Source of the DNA: Clostridia bacterium
GTDB lineage: Bacteria > Bacillota_A > Clostridia > Christensenellales > Aristaeellaceae
Assembly (NCBI GenBank): GCA_025997215.1
Contig: BNUH01000051.1
Coordinates: 1-19,233 of the forward strand
Length of the DNA: 19,233 nt
Reading direction: 5' to 3'
This document shows, piece after piece, positions 8,060 to 19,233 of the stretch; position 1 is the first letter of the stretch, and the number at the start of each line of letters is the position of its first letter. Position numbers and translations under genes: made by a program. The notes under the pieces were generated by a model, which saw nothing but the letters and a program-made list of their open reading frames with translations, was not told where the DNA came from and ran no database searches.

Positions 8060-9095
8060 TATTTCAGTTATTGTCCCTGCATATGGCGTTGCGCTCTATA
8101 TAGACGATTGTCTATGCAGTATATTTACACAAACGCATCCTGCAGTTGAAATTTTATGTATCGATGATGGTTCCTTAGATGGACTCGCCTGTATTGCTGA
8201 TTCATCCGCATTGGTAAATGCCAATTTATGCAGCATACATAAATTCAACTCTGGGGTCAGTGCGACCAGAAACACTGGTCTTGATCTGGCTAACGGCAAT
8301 TGGATTAGCTTTGTTGATGCGGACGATGTGATTGACCTTGTGTTTTATGATGAATTATTATATTACGCTAAACAATATGATGCTCAGATCATACACTGCA
8401 CTTATCGAAGGGAAGTTAAATATACACCTCAGGATGAAAAATCAACAATGGTGTCCATTGACAATCAAATAGATGGGTTAAAGAAATTCTTATTAGGAAG
8501 AAAGATAGAACCAGGGCTGGGGGCAAAATTGTATTTTAAGTGCTTATTCGAAAACATACGCCTCGATGAAACTCTGCGAATTTATGAAGATTATTTAGTA
8601 AATTTCTATTTGTTTAGTACATGCATTAAGTCGGTTTATCTCGCTAAGGATTTATATTACTACCGGCCTAGGTTCGATTCGGTCTCATCTACTGCTTTTA
8701 GTGATAAGAATTTTGATATGATAAAGGCTGCTGATAAAGTCCTTGAGGATCTTGATGAGCATGCGCAAATTTACGACTATGCATTATTACGGAAAATCAT
8801 GGTTTGTTTCTCGCTAATAAATAAAATGATAATATATAACACTAGCGATAAAAGGTGGAACAGTCTTGTTGATTTTCTAGGACACTACACATGGGAAATA
8901 TTGAGATCTGGTTTGTACAACCCAGTTTGGAAAGCGAGTGCACTTCTCTTGGTTGTGTGTCCATTTGCATACCGAATAATAATTCTTTCCCGTGAACATT
9001 TTAGAGGAATATTGCACCTTATATACGACTCAATATGTATTGTGCGTAGTTTTGTTAACAGATGTCGTGCTTCTAATATTTGGAGGAACAATTGA
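8046..9095 (+). CDS. Glycosyltransferase family 2 (GT-A fold)
   Basis: The protein has 349 residues from ATG 8046, which begins just before the GT2 opening FDSISVIVPAYGVALYIDDC. The frame is open 27 codons further up, but that stretch lies within the preceding membrane-protein gene and shows no GT2 features. CIDDGSLDG and NSGVSATRNTG are followed by FVDADDVID with the DxD acids at residues 91-94. The C-terminal half has the 'YEDYLVNFYLFS' acidic motif and a hydrophobic segment (about residues 298-316) that may dip into the membrane. It likely adds one sugar to the lipid-linked repeat unit. The 14-base overlap with the previous gene implies coupled translation. Confidence 0.9.
   Translation: MQFDSISVIVPAYGVALYIDDCLCSIFTQTHPAVEILCIDDGSLDGLACIADSSALVNANLCSIHKFNSGVSATRNTGLDLANGNWISFVDADDVIDLVFYDELLYYAKQYDAQIIHCTYRREVKYTPQDEKSTMVSIDNQIDGLKKFLLGRKIEPGLGAKLYFKCLFENIRLDETLRIYEDYLVNFYLFSTCIKSVYLAKDLYYYRPRFDSVSSTAFSDKNFDMIKAADKVLEDLDEHAQIYDYALLRKIMVCFSLINKMIIYNTSDKRWNSLVDFLGHYTWEILRSGLYNPVWKASALLLVVCPFAYRIIILSREHFRGILHLIYDSICIVRSFVNRCRASNIWRNN
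9082..9086 (+). promoter_or_regulatory. Shine-Dalgarno GGAGG that sets a TTG start
   Basis: GGAGG sits five bases before TTG 9092. That TTG overlaps the previous stop (TTGA). The spacing decides in favour of TTG 9092 over the in-frame TTG at 9080, which lies before the site. Confidence 0.75.
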
Positions 9096-10111
9096 TTACT
9101 TTAGGAAATCATATAGACGATATCGATATTGTAGTTTTATGGTTGGATGGGAATGATTCAGAATGGCTGATGCAACGAAGGGAGTACGAACTTCGTGAGG
9201 GTAGGGCGCCCATGAATCCCGCACGTTACCGCGAATGGCATATTTTCAAGTATTGGTTTCGAGCGGTTGAAAAATATGCCCCTTGGATCCGTACTGTGCA
9301 TCTGGTAACATGTGGGCATTTACCATCCTGGCTCAATTGTGATCATCCAAAACTACATATCGTTCGGCATAGCGATTTTATGCCTGCAGAATATCTTCCT
9401 ACATTTAATGGAATGGCGATAGAAGTGAATATTCACAAAATTCCTGGTCTTAGCGAACACTTTATCTATTCACAGGATGATATATTTTTCGCTGATTATG
9501 TGAAGCCGTCTGATTTTTTTAAAGATGGGATGCCATGCGAAGCGTTGATGCTGGATAATAATCTACCTCTGAGGGACAGTCACTTTTGGAATCCTGCTAT
9601 GAACACAATAGCCATTCAATCTAATTTTAGCAAGAGAAAATGCATACGCGAAAATTTTTTTAAATGGATAAATTGGCGATATGGTTCGTATAATGTAAAG
9701 AACATGCTACTCCTACCTTGGCCTCGCTTTGAAGGTTTCCATCTTCCCCATGTTATGTTCAATGCTAACATTTCTCTAATTCAAGAAGCATGGGAAAAAG
9801 AGTATAAAGCACTAGAAACCACCAGTTTACATAAATTTCGCGATAACTTTGATTTGTCATTTGAGCTCTTTAGAGATTGGCATCTTGTCACAGGTCGCTT
9901 TGCTCCGAGAAGTCCTTGGATATCCGAGAATATAAGCTTAAATGATAAAGAGTCAACTCTTGGCAGGATTCGTCTAATATTTTCAAAGAGAAAGCGGAAG
10001 ATGCTTTGTATTAATGATAATGAGTGGATTGAAAATTTAGAACTCGTCACAAATGGTATTTGCTCTATTCTTTCGGCTACATTTCCAGATAAATCTAGTT
10101 TCGAGAAATAA
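9092..10111 (+). CDS. Stealth family polysaccharide phosphotransferase
   Basis: This 339-residue protein shows all four Stealth conserved regions in order. CR1 is DIVVLWLDGNDSEW (about residues 12-25). CR2 runs from HIFKYWFRAVEKYAPWIRTV through LPTFNGMAIE to FIYSQDDIFF (residues 124-133, with the acidic pair Asp129-Asp130). CR3 is HLPHVMFNANI with its following helix, and CR4 is KMLCINDNEW near the end. Stealth enzymes transfer a sugar-1-phosphate from a nucleotide sugar, making phosphodiester-linked capsule polymers such as those of Neisseria and Actinobacillus. Here it implies a hexose- or HexNAc-1-phosphate in the repeat unit. Length is normal for the family. Start TTG 9092 is set by the adjacent GGAGG. 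Confidence 0.93.
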   Translation: MITLGNHIDDIDIVVLWLDGNDSEWLMQRREYELREGRAPMNPARYREWHIFKYWFRAVEKYAPWIRTVHLVTCGHLPSWLNCDHPKLHIVRHSDFMPAEYLPTFNGMAIEVNIHKIPGLSEHFIYSQDDIFFADYVKPSDFFKDGMPCEALMLDNNLPLRDSHFWNPAMNTIAIQSNFSKRKCIRENFFKWINWRYGSYNVKNMLLLPWPRFEGFHLPHVMFNANISLIQEAWEKEYKALETTSLHKFRDNFDLSFELFRDWHLVTGRFAPRSPWISENISLNDKESTLGRIRLIFSKRKRKMLCINDNEWIENLELVTNGICSILSATFPDKSSFEK

Positions 10112-14373: not shown

Positions 14374-14401
14374 TCCTGACTATAAGGGAATGTGTAAAAG
14401 A

Positions 14402-16303
14402 ATGAACGACCGCAGCTGGCTCAACAGCCCTCTCCTGCGCAGGGTGATCCTTGTCCTAATGGACAGCGTCATTTGCGCCTTATCGCTCCTTTTCGGCATG
14501 CGCGTATGGAACGCATCCCCAAGCGTCACATATATTCTGATGAACTATCGCGCATGGCTATATCTGCTCACATTCCTCACGCTCCACTTTGCTGTCTTCG
14601 TATTAGGCGGTGTCTATAACATCCTATGGAGTCTAGCGAGTGTCGTCGAAGCACTGCAGATGATGTTTCTGGAAGCCTGCCACGTCGTCATCGTGTGTGG
14701 CGCAAACATGCTGTTCCAATGGAACCTCCCAATCGTTGCGCTGATACTGGCATCTACCATGACAGTCCTTATATCAATGACCAGCCGCTTCATCTGGCGA
14801 ATGCTGTGCCTCGGTCGTTTCCGCTCTTTCGGCTTCCATCGTGGCGATCATGTGATCATCGTAGGCGCGGGCGAGGCGGGTGTCTACGCAATCCATCAGT
14901 GTCTGTCTCAATCCGGCTATTCCCCGCAAGCCATCCTGCTGCTAGATGACGACCCAAATAAACAGAAGCTACGCATTCATGGCGTGAAGGTGTGCGGCTG
15001 TGCGCAGGAGATTCCGCACTTCGTGCAAAAATACCTCGATGTACGAGAAATCCTCATCGCGATCCCGTCTCTGAAAGGTGAAGCCTACACAAACCTGATC
15101 ACCTTGTGCAGCGAGACACATTGTAAGGTTCGCATCCTCAGCCCGATCGCCGATGTCCCTTCCGAACAGCCAATCGGTCCAGCCGAGCATCTGAGTTTCC
15201 GTGACCTGAACGTTACCGACTTTCTACCACGCGATGAAGTGAAACTGGATGTCGATAACATCCGCAGCTACCTTACCGATAAAACCGTGATAGTCACTGG
15301 TGGCGGCGGCTCCATCGGCTCAGAAATATGCCGTCAAGTGATGCGTTTTGCGCCGAAGACTCTGTGCATCTTTGATGCTTATGAAAACAACGCTTACGAG
15401 CTCCAAATGGAGCTAGAGCGTGTAGATCACCCAGGAACGCAGATTAAGGTTCTGATTGGTTCGGTGCGAGATGAAAAGCGCCTCCGTCAGGTATTTAGGG
15501 AGATCGCTCCTGAGGTTGTTTTCCATGCCGCAGCGCATAAGCATGTCCCGCTGATGGAGGACAGCCCCGGTGAAGCAATCAAGAATAACATCATAGGTAC
15601 GCGCAATGTCCTGCAAGCAGCCAGCGAATCCGGTGTGGAGCGATTTGTGCTGCTGTCCACAGATAAAGCAGTCAACCCGACGAACGTGATGGGTGCGACC
15701 AAGCGCATGTGCGAGATGCTTGTGCAACACTTCGCACGTCGTACACGAATGAAGTGTATGGCTGTCCGGTTCGGCAATGTGTTAGGTTCGCATGGCAGCG
15801 TGATCCCACTATTCGAATCACAGATACACGCCGGCGGTCCCGTCACTGTCACACATCCTGATATGGAACGCTTTTTCATGACGATCCGCGAAGCGGCGCA
15901 GCTGGTTCTACAAGCGGGTGGCATTGCGCAGAACGGCGCAATCTTCGTACTGGACATGGGCAGGCCCGTCAAGATTATGGAATTAGCCGAGAAGATGATC
16001 GCCTCCCATGGTAAAGTCCCAGGCAAAGATATTCAGATTCAATACACCGGATTACGTCCTGGAGAGAAACTCTACGAGGAATTGTGGATGGAATACGAAC
16101 GGGAGCATATGCAACCAACGGCGCATAAGAAGATCTACATCGCACCGCAGCAAGTGGAAGACGACGTAGCTTTAATGCGGAACTTGGAAGCCTTGGAGCG
16201 AATGAGCAACCACAACGCCCTTGAAATCAAAAGATGCCTGAGCGAGATTGTCGAAAGCTACCATCAGCGAGAAGAGGCACTGCTGCAGGAGGCAGCGGGG
16301 TAA
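14402..16303 (+). CDS. Membrane nucleotide-sugar 4,6-dehydratase, CapD/PglF/FlaA1-like
   Basis: This is a 633-residue protein. Four hydrophobic helices fill roughly residues 10-130. A CoA-binding-like Rossmann domain with HVIIVGAGEAGVYA comes next (about residue 150), then a C-terminal SDR catalytic domain. VTGGGGSIGSEICRQV near residue 300 binds NAD(P). FHAAAHKHVPLME and STDKAVNPTNVMGATKR (Ser419, Met430, Lys434) form the active site, and YTGLRPGEKLYEEL follows. The family dehydrates UDP-GlcNAc to the 4-keto-6-deoxy sugar, usually for bacillosamine- or QuiNAc-type sugars. ATG 14402 is preferred because AAGGG at 14384-14388 is almost touching the alternative ATG 14390, which would add four residues. 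The gene is GC-rich with many C-ending codons, unlike the transferase block. Confidence 0.92.
   Translation: MNDRSWLNSPLLRRVILVLMDSVICALSLLFGMRVWNASPSVTYILMNYRAWLYLLTFLTLHFAVFVLGGVYNILWSLASVVEALQMMFLEACHVVIVCGANMLFQWNLPIVALILASTMTVLISMTSRFIWRMLCLGRFRSFGFHRGDHVIIVGAGEAGVYAIHQCLSQSGYSPQAILLLDDDPNKQKLRIHGVKVCGCAQEIPHFVQKYLDVREILIAIPSLKGEAYTNLITLCSETHCKVRILSPIADVPSEQPIGPAEHLSFRDLNVTDFLPRDEVKLDVDNIRSYLTDKTVIVTGGGGSIGSEICRQVMRFAPKTLCIFDAYENNAYELQMELERVDHPGTQIKVLIGSVRDEKRLRQVFREIAPEVVFHAAAHKHVPLMEDSPGEAIKNNIIGTRNVLQAASESGVERFVLLSTDKAVNPTNVMGATKRMCEMLVQHFARRTRMKCMAVRFGNVLGSHGSVIPLFESQIHAGGPVTVTHPDMERFFMTIREAAQLVLQAGGIAQNGAIFVLDMGRPVKIMELAEKMIASHGKVPGKDIQIQYTGLRPGEKLYEELWMEYEREHMQPTAHKKIYIAPQQVEDDVALMRNLEALERMSNHNALEIKRCLSEIVESYHQREEALLQEAAG
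16287..16292 (+). promoter_or_regulatory. Shine-Dalgarno AGGAGG inside the end of the dehydratase gene
   Basis: AGGAGG lies ten bases before ATG 16303, which shares its A with the TAA stop (TAATG). This supports translation of the 40-codon ORF that follows. Confidence 0.55.
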
Positions 16304-16425
16304 TGAATAATGGAAAAATATCCATGTGCGATTTATTTGAAAGGATCATCACTCATGCGCTGATACTGCCGGACAGATATGCGCATAAGCCACGATATGC
16401 TGCTGATAATGAGGTCATCGTATGA
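16303..16425 (+). CDS. Small coupled ORF of unknown function (40 aa)
   Basis: This 40-codon ORF starts MNNGKISMCDLFERIITHAL. Its ATG overlaps the previous stop (TAATG), and its TGA overlaps the next start (ATGA at 16422-16425). It has an AGGAGG ribosome site. I recognise no family and see no membrane span or signal sequence; a single amphipathic helix is possible around FERIITHALIL. Because it is locked to both neighbours, it may be a real small protein or a relay that lets ribosomes leaving the dehydratase gene reach the repeat-protein gene. It could also be coincidental, since such a short ORF carries little statistical weight. Confidence 0.45.
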   Translation: MNNGKISMCDLFERIITHALILPDRYAHKPRYAADNEVIV

Positions 16426-18572
16426 AACGCAAGATAGTACCGATATATCTGATAGTTTTAGCTATAATATATTCATTATTCAACATTTCATTTTCATATG
16501 CGGAAGTAACGGACACCAGTGAAACCGAATATAGCGTTGAAAAATCAGATGATAATGATCTGAGAACTGACGCATTAGTTGTCTCAACGCCATTGGCGCA
16601 AGTACCAACAGTAAAGAAATACATATCAAAGACGCTTATACAAGAAACTTGGGTCGGTGTAGATGGCAATCGAATCATGAATGAAGATGGCTATTGTTAC
16701 TACAAGATCACCCTCAACGCACACACTAAGCCGGGTCAGATTGACTACTATGATACCGAGGACAATCTCGTTAATACTAAGCAAGGCTATGCAACGATAA
16801 AGCATAAGCTGAACGGTTCAGCTAAACTTATAGAGACAGTGTATAACAACAAGGACGGCACGCAAGTCAATGGTCCGCAGGGGTATGCTAAACTAGTCAA
16901 CACATATAAAGGATTGCGTATATTATCGATTGAATACTTTGACGCGAACGGTAACTATACGGTACCACCAGGTTTATTTGCAAAAAAGGAATATGAGTAT
17001 AATAAAGAAAACAGGTTAATTCGGGAATCTTATTTGGACGCGGATGGCAAGCCAATGCTGAATGCCGACGGTGCTGCTACAATCTTGTACGAGCGTGGAT
17101 CAAGCAACGAAATACTCATCGAACGCTTCCTTGACGCCACAGGTAATCCAACAGTATCAAAGCAGGGTTATGCGTCCTTATTACAAACATTCGATAAAAA
17201 GACACTGTTAACTGCAGAATATCGTGATGAAGACGACGAAATGATGATAGGGCCTAAGGGATACGCACGGATTGTAATCGATTATAAGAATGTTACAAAA
17301 GGTCTGGTGAGTAAGGAGTCATACTATGGAATAGATGAGAAACTGATGCTTATTCATGATGGATATTCAGTGAAAGAGTATCTATATGACAAAATCAGCC
17401 ACTTGATTGAAGAACGATACCTTGATACTGGGGAAAACCTTATTGAATGGCGCGAAGGTTATGCTTCTGTCACATATGCTTATAAAAATAACAATATAGT
17501 TCAAATTGAGTATTATGGTTTGGATGGGAGTCCTATCGATAATCAGTATGGTTACAGTGAAGTGGCTTACGCTTACGACAAAAGAAACAATCGTACACAA
17601 GAGAAATATTATGACGCAGCTGGAGCGCCTGTTCTATGTGAAAAGGGATACCATGAGGTTGATTACCAATACGATAGCAAGAAAGTCTTAATAGCTGAAA
17701 GTTACTTGGATATAGATGGCAACCCAGTAATCCCTATTGATAAAAAAGCTCCTACCGTTCGGTATAAATTCGACAAGAAAGGCCTTATCATAGAGGAGCA
17801 ATATACCGATCACGAAAGCAATCCTGTTTTATGCGACGATGGTTACGCAAAGGTAACAAGGGAATTCGATAAATCTGGTAGAATTACAAAAGAGTCTTAT
17901 TATGATACGGATGGGAACCCTATCTTATCCGTCAACGGGTATGCCAGTCTTACGAAGGAATACGATGCTGCTGGAAACAGCATAAGCGAAACCTACTGGG
18001 ATAAGGACGGCTATCAAATAAACGCGGTTGTTGGCTATGCTCGAATCGAGCGTGTTTATGTGGATAACAGGCTCGTATCAGAAACTTACCTTGACCCTAG
18101 TGGGAATCCAGTAGCGCTTTTGGATGGCTATGCCTCTTTCACACAACGCTATGATAGTAGCGGTAACCTGATCGATGTTGCATACTACGATGAAAATGGT
18201 ATTCTTGTTCCTAGTGTAAAGGCATTGTATGCGAGGGTGTCACGCATATATAACGCTCAAAAACGTGTTACGGAAGAACGATACTATGGGTATAACGGAC
18301 AGCCTTTCATAATGCCGGATGGTTATGCAATGCTCACTCGCGATTACGATATTGCGGGGAATGTTTTAGTTCAATCGTATCGGGACGCTGATGGAGCATT
18401 GACTAATAATACAAAACTGCTTTATGCTGAAGCGAGAAAAACATATGACAAGCATAACCGCTTTTTTGAATTAACAATCTATCGTCTGTACCGTAATAAG
18501 CACGCCTTTGTACATTCCCGTACTGGTCGTAGTCTGATATTTGTCTGGCATAACCGTCTTTTGATAGTATAG
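16422..18572 (+). CDS. Secreted tandem-repeat protein, interrupted at its 3' part
   Basis: This ORF has 716 codons. Residues 1-27 are a signal peptide with a KRK start, a hydrophobic core and a probable cut after SFSYA. After a short acidic linker come about 18 tandem repeats of 31-33 residues, with the consensus GYA...R.YD..GN...E.YYD.DGNP....D. The design recalls YD, MORN and cell-wall-binding repeats, but I cannot assign a named family. GAGG at 16411-16414 precedes ATG 16422. Residues from about 677 onward are not repeat-like: they are the antisense of a repeat, carried by an inverted-repeat arm, and the ORF stops inside an inverted core at TAG 18570. It lies directly after the capsule genes and is translationally coupled to them. 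A role in binding or organising the surface polymer is a guess. Confidence 0.8.
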   Translation: MKRKIVPIYLIVLAIIYSLFNISFSYAEVTDTSETEYSVEKSDDNDLRTDALVVSTPLAQVPTVKKYISKTLIQETWVGVDGNRIMNEDGYCYYKITLNAHTKPGQIDYYDTEDNLVNTKQGYATIKHKLNGSAKLIETVYNNKDGTQVNGPQGYAKLVNTYKGLRILSIEYFDANGNYTVPPGLFAKKEYEYNKENRLIRESYLDADGKPMLNADGAATILYERGSSNEILIERFLDATGNPTVSKQGYASLLQTFDKKTLLTAEYRDEDDEMMIGPKGYARIVIDYKNVTKGLVSKESYYGIDEKLMLIHDGYSVKEYLYDKISHLIEERYLDTGENLIEWREGYASVTYAYKNNNIVQIEYYGLDGSPIDNQYGYSEVAYAYDKRNNRTQEKYYDAAGAPVLCEKGYHEVDYQYDSKKVLIAESYLDIDGNPVIPIDKKAPTVRYKFDKKGLIIEEQYTDHESNPVLCDDGYAKVTREFDKSGRITKESYYDTDGNPILSVNGYASLTKEYDAAGNSISETYWDKDGYQINAVVGYARIERVYVDNRLVSETYLDPSGNPVALLDGYASFTQRYDSSGNLIDVAYYDENGILVPSVKALYARVSRIYNAQKRVTEERYYGYNGQPFIMPDGYAMLTRDYDIAGNVLVQSYRDADGALTNNTKLLYAEARKTYDKHNRFFELTIYRLYRNKHAFVHSRTGRSLIFVWHNRLLIV
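16689..18443 (+). repeat. Tandem protein repeats of about 32 codons (about 96 bp each)
   Basis: About 18 copies stand head to tail. Each starts with G-Y-A (or GYS, GYC, GLFA) and carries a central aromatic-acid pair (YD, FD). It then has 'E.YY' and ends with D.DG.P and four to six variable residues. The copies have diverged at DNA level, so only the protein pattern is obvious. The best conserved units lie between about 17,840 and 18,200. Five further units of the same pattern continue after the rearrangement, up to the window end. Confidence 0.85.
18451..18541 (+). repeat. Left arm of a perfect 91-bp inverted repeat
   Basis: Base by base this arm is the exact reverse complement of 18659-18749, and the identity stops abruptly at both ends. 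Read on the + strand it gives non-repeat residues (HNRFFELTIYRLYRNK and on). Read on the - strand it gives a proper repeat (DYDQYGNVQRRAYYG). Confidence 0.95.
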
Positions 18573-18658
18573 GTTTACCATCTGTGTCAAAGTATTTCTC
18601 CTCCTGTAATTGCTTACCGTCGTATATTCTACGAATTACAGCATAGCCGTTGATGATT
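18542..18658 (-). other. 117-bp inverted core between the repeat arms
   Basis: On the - strand this core encodes INGYAVIRRIYDG, then EEKYFDTDGKPILSKDGYAR, a textbook unit of the surrounding tandem-repeat protein. It therefore lies backwards relative to the gene. Its length is exactly 39 codons, so turning it over keeps the frame. In the given orientation its + strand supplies the TAG at 18570 that ends the gene. In the turned orientation there is no stop, and the frame joins both arms. Confidence 0.85.
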
Positions 18659-18749
18659 AATATCAGACTACGACCAGTACGGGAATGTACAAAGGCGTGC
18701 TTATTACGGTACAGACGATAGATTGTTAATTCAAAAAAGCGGTTATGCT
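18659..18749 (+). repeat. Right arm of a perfect 91-bp inverted repeat
   Basis: This arm is the exact reverse complement of 18451-18541. On the + strand it reads as normal repeat sequence (ISDYDQYGNVQRRAYYG, then QKSGYA) and runs on seamlessly into the downstream repeats. It is therefore the arm that sits in its original context. Confidence 0.95.
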
Positions 18750-19233
18750 GTTGTTAAAAGCGAATATGACATAAACGGGAACCTCCTTCATGAATCATAC
18801 TTAGACAATCATGAGCTTCCCGTCTTTGCTGCTGCAGGCTATTCGAGCAAGAGACAGTCATTCAATGATTTCAACCAAGTCGTGTCCATGTCTTATTATG
18901 ATACAGAGGATAACCTGATAATCATCCCTGCTGGCTATGCCAGTATTGTTCGTGAATATGATTCGGCGGGAAATATAGCGGCGGAATCGTTCTTCGGAAC
19001 AGACAACAACCCTATTATGATATCCAGAGGTTACACGTCGATTCAGAGGGTTTATGATGATCGAATGCATATTGTACAGGAAAGGTATTTTGGTATCAAC
19101 AATGAACCAGTTAATCTTGCGGACGGCTACAGCGCTGTCCAGAGAGAATATGATGATGCTGGCAATGCTGTAAAAGATACATATCTTGGTGTTGATATGC
19201 GTCTTGTACGTACGGCCATGGGTTATGCCATCG
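18659..19233 (+). pseudogene. Separated 3' part of the repeat protein gene (continues past the window)
   Basis: The frame used by the upstream gene reopens at the right arm and stays open to the window edge. It gives about five more repeats (for example GYASIVREYDSAGNIAAESF). No start codon with a ribosome site is visible, so in this orientation the segment is probably not translated. The upstream and downstream parts are in the same phase, separated only by the backward core. If the core is turned over, this becomes the normal continuation of the secreted protein. It is not a free-standing gene. Confidence 0.65.

Follow-up and report, generated by a model that had tools for sequence, protein, structure and literature searches.

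The question raised by this locus is whether a long perfect inverted repeat inside a repeat-protein gene is a reversible switch or has another origin. The window (the whole stretch of DNA analysed, 19,233 nt) carries the 5' part of the gene, as assembled, at 16422-18572 on the plus strand (ORF list, repeat profile and structure model). An earlier note on this DNA had proposed an intragenic inversion switch formed by two perfect 91-nt inverted arms around a 117-nt core, and this anatomy was borne out: positions 18451-18541 match the reverse complement of 18659-18749 in 91 of 91 positions, and the two arms flank a core of 117 nt. They form the sole perfect inverted repeat of at least 25 nt with partners no more than 5 kb apart in the 19-kb window. 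With an identity of 91/91, a chance origin of the arms is not credible, and this reading was ruled out.

The product of the gene is probably a repetitive, secreted protein. In the AlphaFold model of its left part (mean pLDDT: 89.3), a signal-like helix is predicted at the N-terminus (residues 8-22), and 18 profile-matched beta-hairpin repeats of ~32 residues each follow the helix in the product of 16422-18572. The best Foldseek rows for the protein were RHS shells and teneurins (E-values down to 3.4e-21), with TM-scores of at most 0.34 in the best 50 of 397 rows. The Pfam family RHS_repeat reached 17.1 bits, which is below its cut-off of 22. Judged by the model, the protein appears fold-like to RHS/YD-repeat proteins; membership of that family is not claimed. 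In the sequence as given, the ORF list places the stop of the 16422 ORF at 18572, inside the core, as the earlier note had stated. Further repeats of the same gene lie downstream at 18750-19232 (plus strand), in the 16422 reading frame, and run off the contig end (ORF list, phase and profile).

Directly upstream of the repeat gene, on the plus strand, the ORFs and their Pfam families mark a polysaccharide gene cluster. Its members are epimerases, glycosyltransferases, a CDP-glycerol glycerophosphotransferase-like protein, a Stealth protein, a Wzz/AAA protein and a Polysacc_synt_2 protein; the Stealth-family protein (Stealth_CR2) is encoded at 9080-10111. The Pfam scan covered 14 gene-like ORFs out of the 41 listed in the window, of which two lacked any family at E 0.001 and a further one had only a match below the cut-off. 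No recombinase was found by Pfam among these 14, in agreement with the earlier statement that the window holds no recombinase gene.

The strand of the repeats was read with a profile built from 500 of 707 repeat units of homologous proteins and run over six frames. Plus-strand repeats were found up to 18416 and again from 18666, and no plus-strand match above 3 bits occurred between these points in the six-frame run. The minus strand, on the other hand, gave matches at 18460-18555 (20.7 bits) and 18559-18648 (33.4 bits). From this strand pattern it follows that the left arm and the core are one antisense block and that the right arm is native: positions 18451-18658 are one block of two complete minus-strand repeats in a plus-strand array. 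The left arm (18451-18541, minus strand; arm comparison and profile) is the right arm copied backwards, with a repeat on the minus strand only. The core (18542-18658, minus strand; profile and alignment) is an antisense repeat segment, joined without a break to the left arm when read on the minus strand. The right arm (18659-18749, plus strand; comparison and profile) is the native copy of what we call segment B and shares its frame with the repeats downstream. Wrong-strand repeats had been noticed before in the core. The core is indeed antisense, but not the core alone, since the minus-strand matches include the left arm. The 69-residue minus-strand reading of 18451-18658 aligned to homologous arrays from residue 1-5 to residue 69, with a short gap at most and 44-50% identity in the 14 best rows; these alignments leave the repeat-to-repeat correspondence with the homologues unfixed.

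The arm ends share an 11-nt inverted identity, AGCATAACCGC, in which 18451-18461 matches 18739-18749 (no strand assigned; sequence and pair count). It fits the YD..N.R motif in the left flank and the GYA motif in the right arm. Going by the repeat motif, it would be native to the left flank, and it is presumed to be the first switch point of the event proposed below. A count of inverted pairs no more than 400 nt apart over the window's first 18,450 nt gave 0 at a length of 11 nt, 12 at 10 nt and 50 at 9 nt.

When the core alone was reverse-complemented, an open frame was obtained from 16422 to the window end, just as had been claimed. Such an open flipped frame is expected by chance at ~7% (a mean open fraction of 0.212 for 91-nt antisense pieces, multiplied by 1/3), or at 6% when the phase is matched (127/689 multiplied by 1/3), and the ~8% reckoned in the earlier note agrees with both. 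The common reading phase of the two flanks had been counted in the same reckoning. The flanks already share their phase in the sequence as given. The expectation of regular repeats at both core-arm joints held for the right joint but failed at the left one, where YD and the GY that follows it are 36 residues apart. Measured with a simple pattern, this spacing is 24 at 5 of 5 downstream places and 23-28 at 8 of the 10 upstream ones, with 16 and 13 at the other two. At a spacing of 36 instead of ~24, the flipped layout leaves ~25 non-repeat residues. The left arm codes no repeat in the gene direction in either core orientation; because it is a backward copy, neither orientation gives a regular array. 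If the assembly was made from short reads, the core orientation as given may be arbitrary, even at a real locus.

The anatomy was then compared with that of 79 homologous loci, 76 from the sample of one family and 3 from the class sample (in which four genomes matched). These are the loci retrieved among the matches listed; several share a genome, and all are distant homologues. Repeats were counted at 10 bits or more. Inverted repeats had to be perfect, at least 20 nt long, no more than 3 kb apart and inside the array, with non-overlapping arms. No mixed-strand repeats were found among the 3,042 repeats of the 79 loci, and none of the 79 loci had a perfect inverted repeat of at least 20 nt within 3 kb inside its array, which left the window as the sole positive of the 80 sequences. 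The comparison with related genomes that the earlier note had put forward as a check of the switch thus yielded neither arms nor a strand change in any of these distant homologues. The reading of the structure as a conserved feature of the family was rejected for the 79 loci examined (0/79 with the structure). As the homologues are distant, the sequence comparison excludes a device common to these loci, not a recent local one.

Five frame switches were counted in the 80 sequences (79 loci and the window). Two of those seen in the first 40 loci fall in L105, a locus with 56 masked bases, and the perfect inverted pair of at least 25 nt in the same locus is a masked N run and void. Also among the first 40 loci, L114 and L117 had short palindromes (26 and 28 nt), which the non-overlap rule removed. 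A perfect 35-nt inverted pair lies 4.8 kb apart in L138:198-5058, outside the 3-kb limit of the comparison.

A relative carrying the native allele was sought in protein, genome-contig, viral-contig and whole-genome searches, and none was found. The repeat protein occurs in 96 of the 250 genomes of the G216 family sample (E 1e-10), G216 belonging to an order sample drawn around a Christensenella intestinihominis genome, as against 4 of 341 genomes in the class sample. The source organism probably belongs to the G216 family. The best long homologue among the matches listed reached 38% identity over residues 69-647, and the local maxima of identity to distant relatives of the repeat protein were 38%, 35% and 43% (among the matches listed) and 45% over 80 residues. 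Long beta-hairpin repeat proteins like the one encoded at 16422-18446, with open frames of up to 3,385 residues, were seen among the matches listed, and TIR-domain proteins occurred among the homologues in the protein search. Apart from the window's own protein, nothing above 38% identity was returned by two protein searches with the repeat protein, each length-limited and scoring ~8,000 candidates, so that relatives longer than ~1,640 residues would escape them. Searching genome contigs with the repeat ORF gave 19 pattern matches, none of which was confirmed. Neither the epimerase nor the repeat ORF had a match in viral contigs. Among the matches listed for genomes around Christensenella and related groups, none was to the repeat gene at the nucleotide level.

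The upstream epimerase (14390-16303) served as a second probe. Its best identity in genome contigs was 49%, and its relatives in the genomes around Christensenella and related groups reached no more than 50% identity at the protein level and, over parts, 64-75% at the nucleotide level. One relative, P0097, labelled 'Clostridia bacterium' and located on a 13,001-nt contig, is 92% identical; all others are at or below 58% among the 120 matches listed. Since P0097 is the only near relative among these matches, the source lineage looks sparsely sampled. The C-terminus of P0097 is intact, and its contig should therefore continue towards the repeat gene.

We see about an even chance that the structure is a one-off local inverted duplication, produced in the cell by a two-step template switch, and not a dedicated switch. 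Going by the repeat grammar only, the native order would have been left flank A, a short stretch since lost, a segment X, segment B and right flank C. During the copying of A, the growing end with AGCATAACCGC would have annealed to the complementary stretch at the distal end of B on the opposite strand. Synthesis would then have run backwards through B and X before resuming on the original template where B begins. The product would be A - rc(X+B) - B - C with perfect 91-nt arms and a switch-point order of 1-3-4-2. Should the core in fact lie the other way round, the order would be 1-4-3-2, with only B copied backwards and replacing ~13 residues. The usual 24-residue spacing suggests that the lost native stretch was ~39 nt long, and a greater loss by whole repeats is possible. 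The gene as given would be broken by its backward duplicate, with a truncated protein as the predicted effect. Passive inversion between the 91-nt arms is possible, and it may arise spontaneously later, as a side effect.

As a one-step reading, the template switch explains all parts of the locus. It is favoured because the antisense block of two repeats is contiguous, with plus-strand repeats on either side, and because the arm ends share an 11-nt inverted microhomology, a length at which the first 18,450 nt hold no pair within 400 nt. The absence of the anatomy from all 79 homologous loci, the left arm without a repeat in the plus direction and the flipped spacing of 36 instead of ~24 argue in the same direction. 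The left arm is a reverse-complement copy of a neighbouring segment within native sequence, and microhomology is present at the presumed first switch point. Some points weigh against this reading. The searches gave no relative with the native allele, and the ancestral order comes from the repeat grammar only. The frame opens fully on flipping, which has a chance of only ~7% and mildly favours a flipped coding state, present or past. Moreover, the order 1-3-4-2, which the orientation as given needs, is absent from the majority patterns named in PMC7954356. That study sets out the four-point model and the event types of short-range template switches and gives 1-4-3-2 and 3-2-1-4 as the majority patterns in great apes.

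A laboratory chimera predicts nearly the same sequence as a template switch in the cell. Strand-switching in whole-genome amplification or a fold-back misjoin in the assembly would have created the arms, and the true gene would be a plain uninterrupted array. We regard this as somewhat unlikely, but as a serious rival all the same; a single copying accident, be it in the cell or in the laboratory, is the most likely origin overall. Of the 475 chimeras mapped in a study of MDA, 406 (85%) were inverted; complementarity at the junctions extended to as much as 21 nt, and MDA chimeras were often primed at short complementary stretches (PMC1855051). The 11-nt complementarity at the junction and the likely deletion fit such an origin, as do the full identity of the arms and their absence from the 79 homologous loci. 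Nevertheless, two switches no more than ~300 nt apart on one molecule would be required, the product would have to be dominant in the assembly, and no second perfect inverted repeat of at least 25 nt within 5 kb exists in the window. A staggered-break inversion, in which X and B were cut with offset nicks and rejoined backwards while B was duplicated by fill-in, appears very improbable. Staggered-break inversion with fill-in yields a one-sided inverted duplication beside the inverted segment, which is the layout seen here, but gives no reason to expect an 11-nt microhomology where the arms end.

The switch itself, in which recombination between the 91-nt arms would toggle the core and with it a truncated (as given) and a full-length secreted protein, we consider improbable. 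With the core flipped, the frame does stay open as far as the contig end (~7% by chance). The gene adjoins polysaccharide genes, and gut invertons often lie near cell-surface genes (PMC11892184). In yeast, spacers between perfect short inverted repeats in coding sequences are reported to invert reversibly, but with spacer changes of only 2-5 bp (PMC8604942). Against these points, the left arm remains antisense and non-repeat in both orientations, the 14 scanned ORFs hold no recombinase by Pfam, no relative with the other orientation was found and the arms are longer than the 10-40 nt that PMC11892184 gives for invertons. A dedicated ON/OFF device is unsupported given the antisense left arm and the lack of a comparable structure in any of the 79 homologous loci. 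A variant with a still slighter chance, and in our view distinctly improbable, is a newborn contingency locus. Here, a template-switch accident would have made the 91-nt arms in the gene of a surface protein, and ordinary recombination or further template switching would flip the core, so that truncated and full-length forms alternate without a dedicated recombinase. The open flipped frame is the sole hint of it.

Should the newborn contingency locus be true, the origin of an intragenic switch would have been caught at its first step. If the duplication event is real, the locus is a clear example of the gain of an inverted repeat in repeat genes and possibly the starting point of an inversion switch. 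As a chimera, it would be a warning that long inverted repeats in assembled genes can pass for switches. For scans of this kind, the lesson is that the arms should be strand-scored as well as the core.

In hsdS-type and shufflon systems, homologous inverted segments lie in the coding region, and the exchanged modules code in the gene direction after inversion. The present locus shares the homologous inverted segments in a coding region, but its left arm never codes in the gene direction; hsdS-like shuffling was ruled out because this arm codes for repeats in neither orientation. As in the intragenic invertons described by Chanin et al. 2024, inverted repeats flank an invertible core within a gene and a flip of the core alters the stop. 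Unlike in these invertons, the left arm is antisense whichever way the core lies, the distant homologues examined show no conserved structure (0/79) and a site-specific recombinase nearby, which is usual and not required for an inverton, was not found by Pfam in the 14 of 41 window ORFs scanned. The inverted chimeras of MDA (phi29) resemble the locus in the inverted join, the deletion and the short complementarity (PMC1855051), whereas the locus needs two joins, with a return to the original strand. The comparison with short-range template-switch (quasipalindrome-associated) mutations covers the layout and uses an ancestor that is itself reconstructed here. The orientation as given needs the order 1-3-4-2, unlike the majority patterns, and the flipped orientation alone matches 1-4-3-2 (PMC7954356). 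In the remaining features, the locus is like these mutations: a perfect inverted repeat arises from one native copy, microhomology is found at the first switch and the stretch between the switch points is replaced (PMC7954356).
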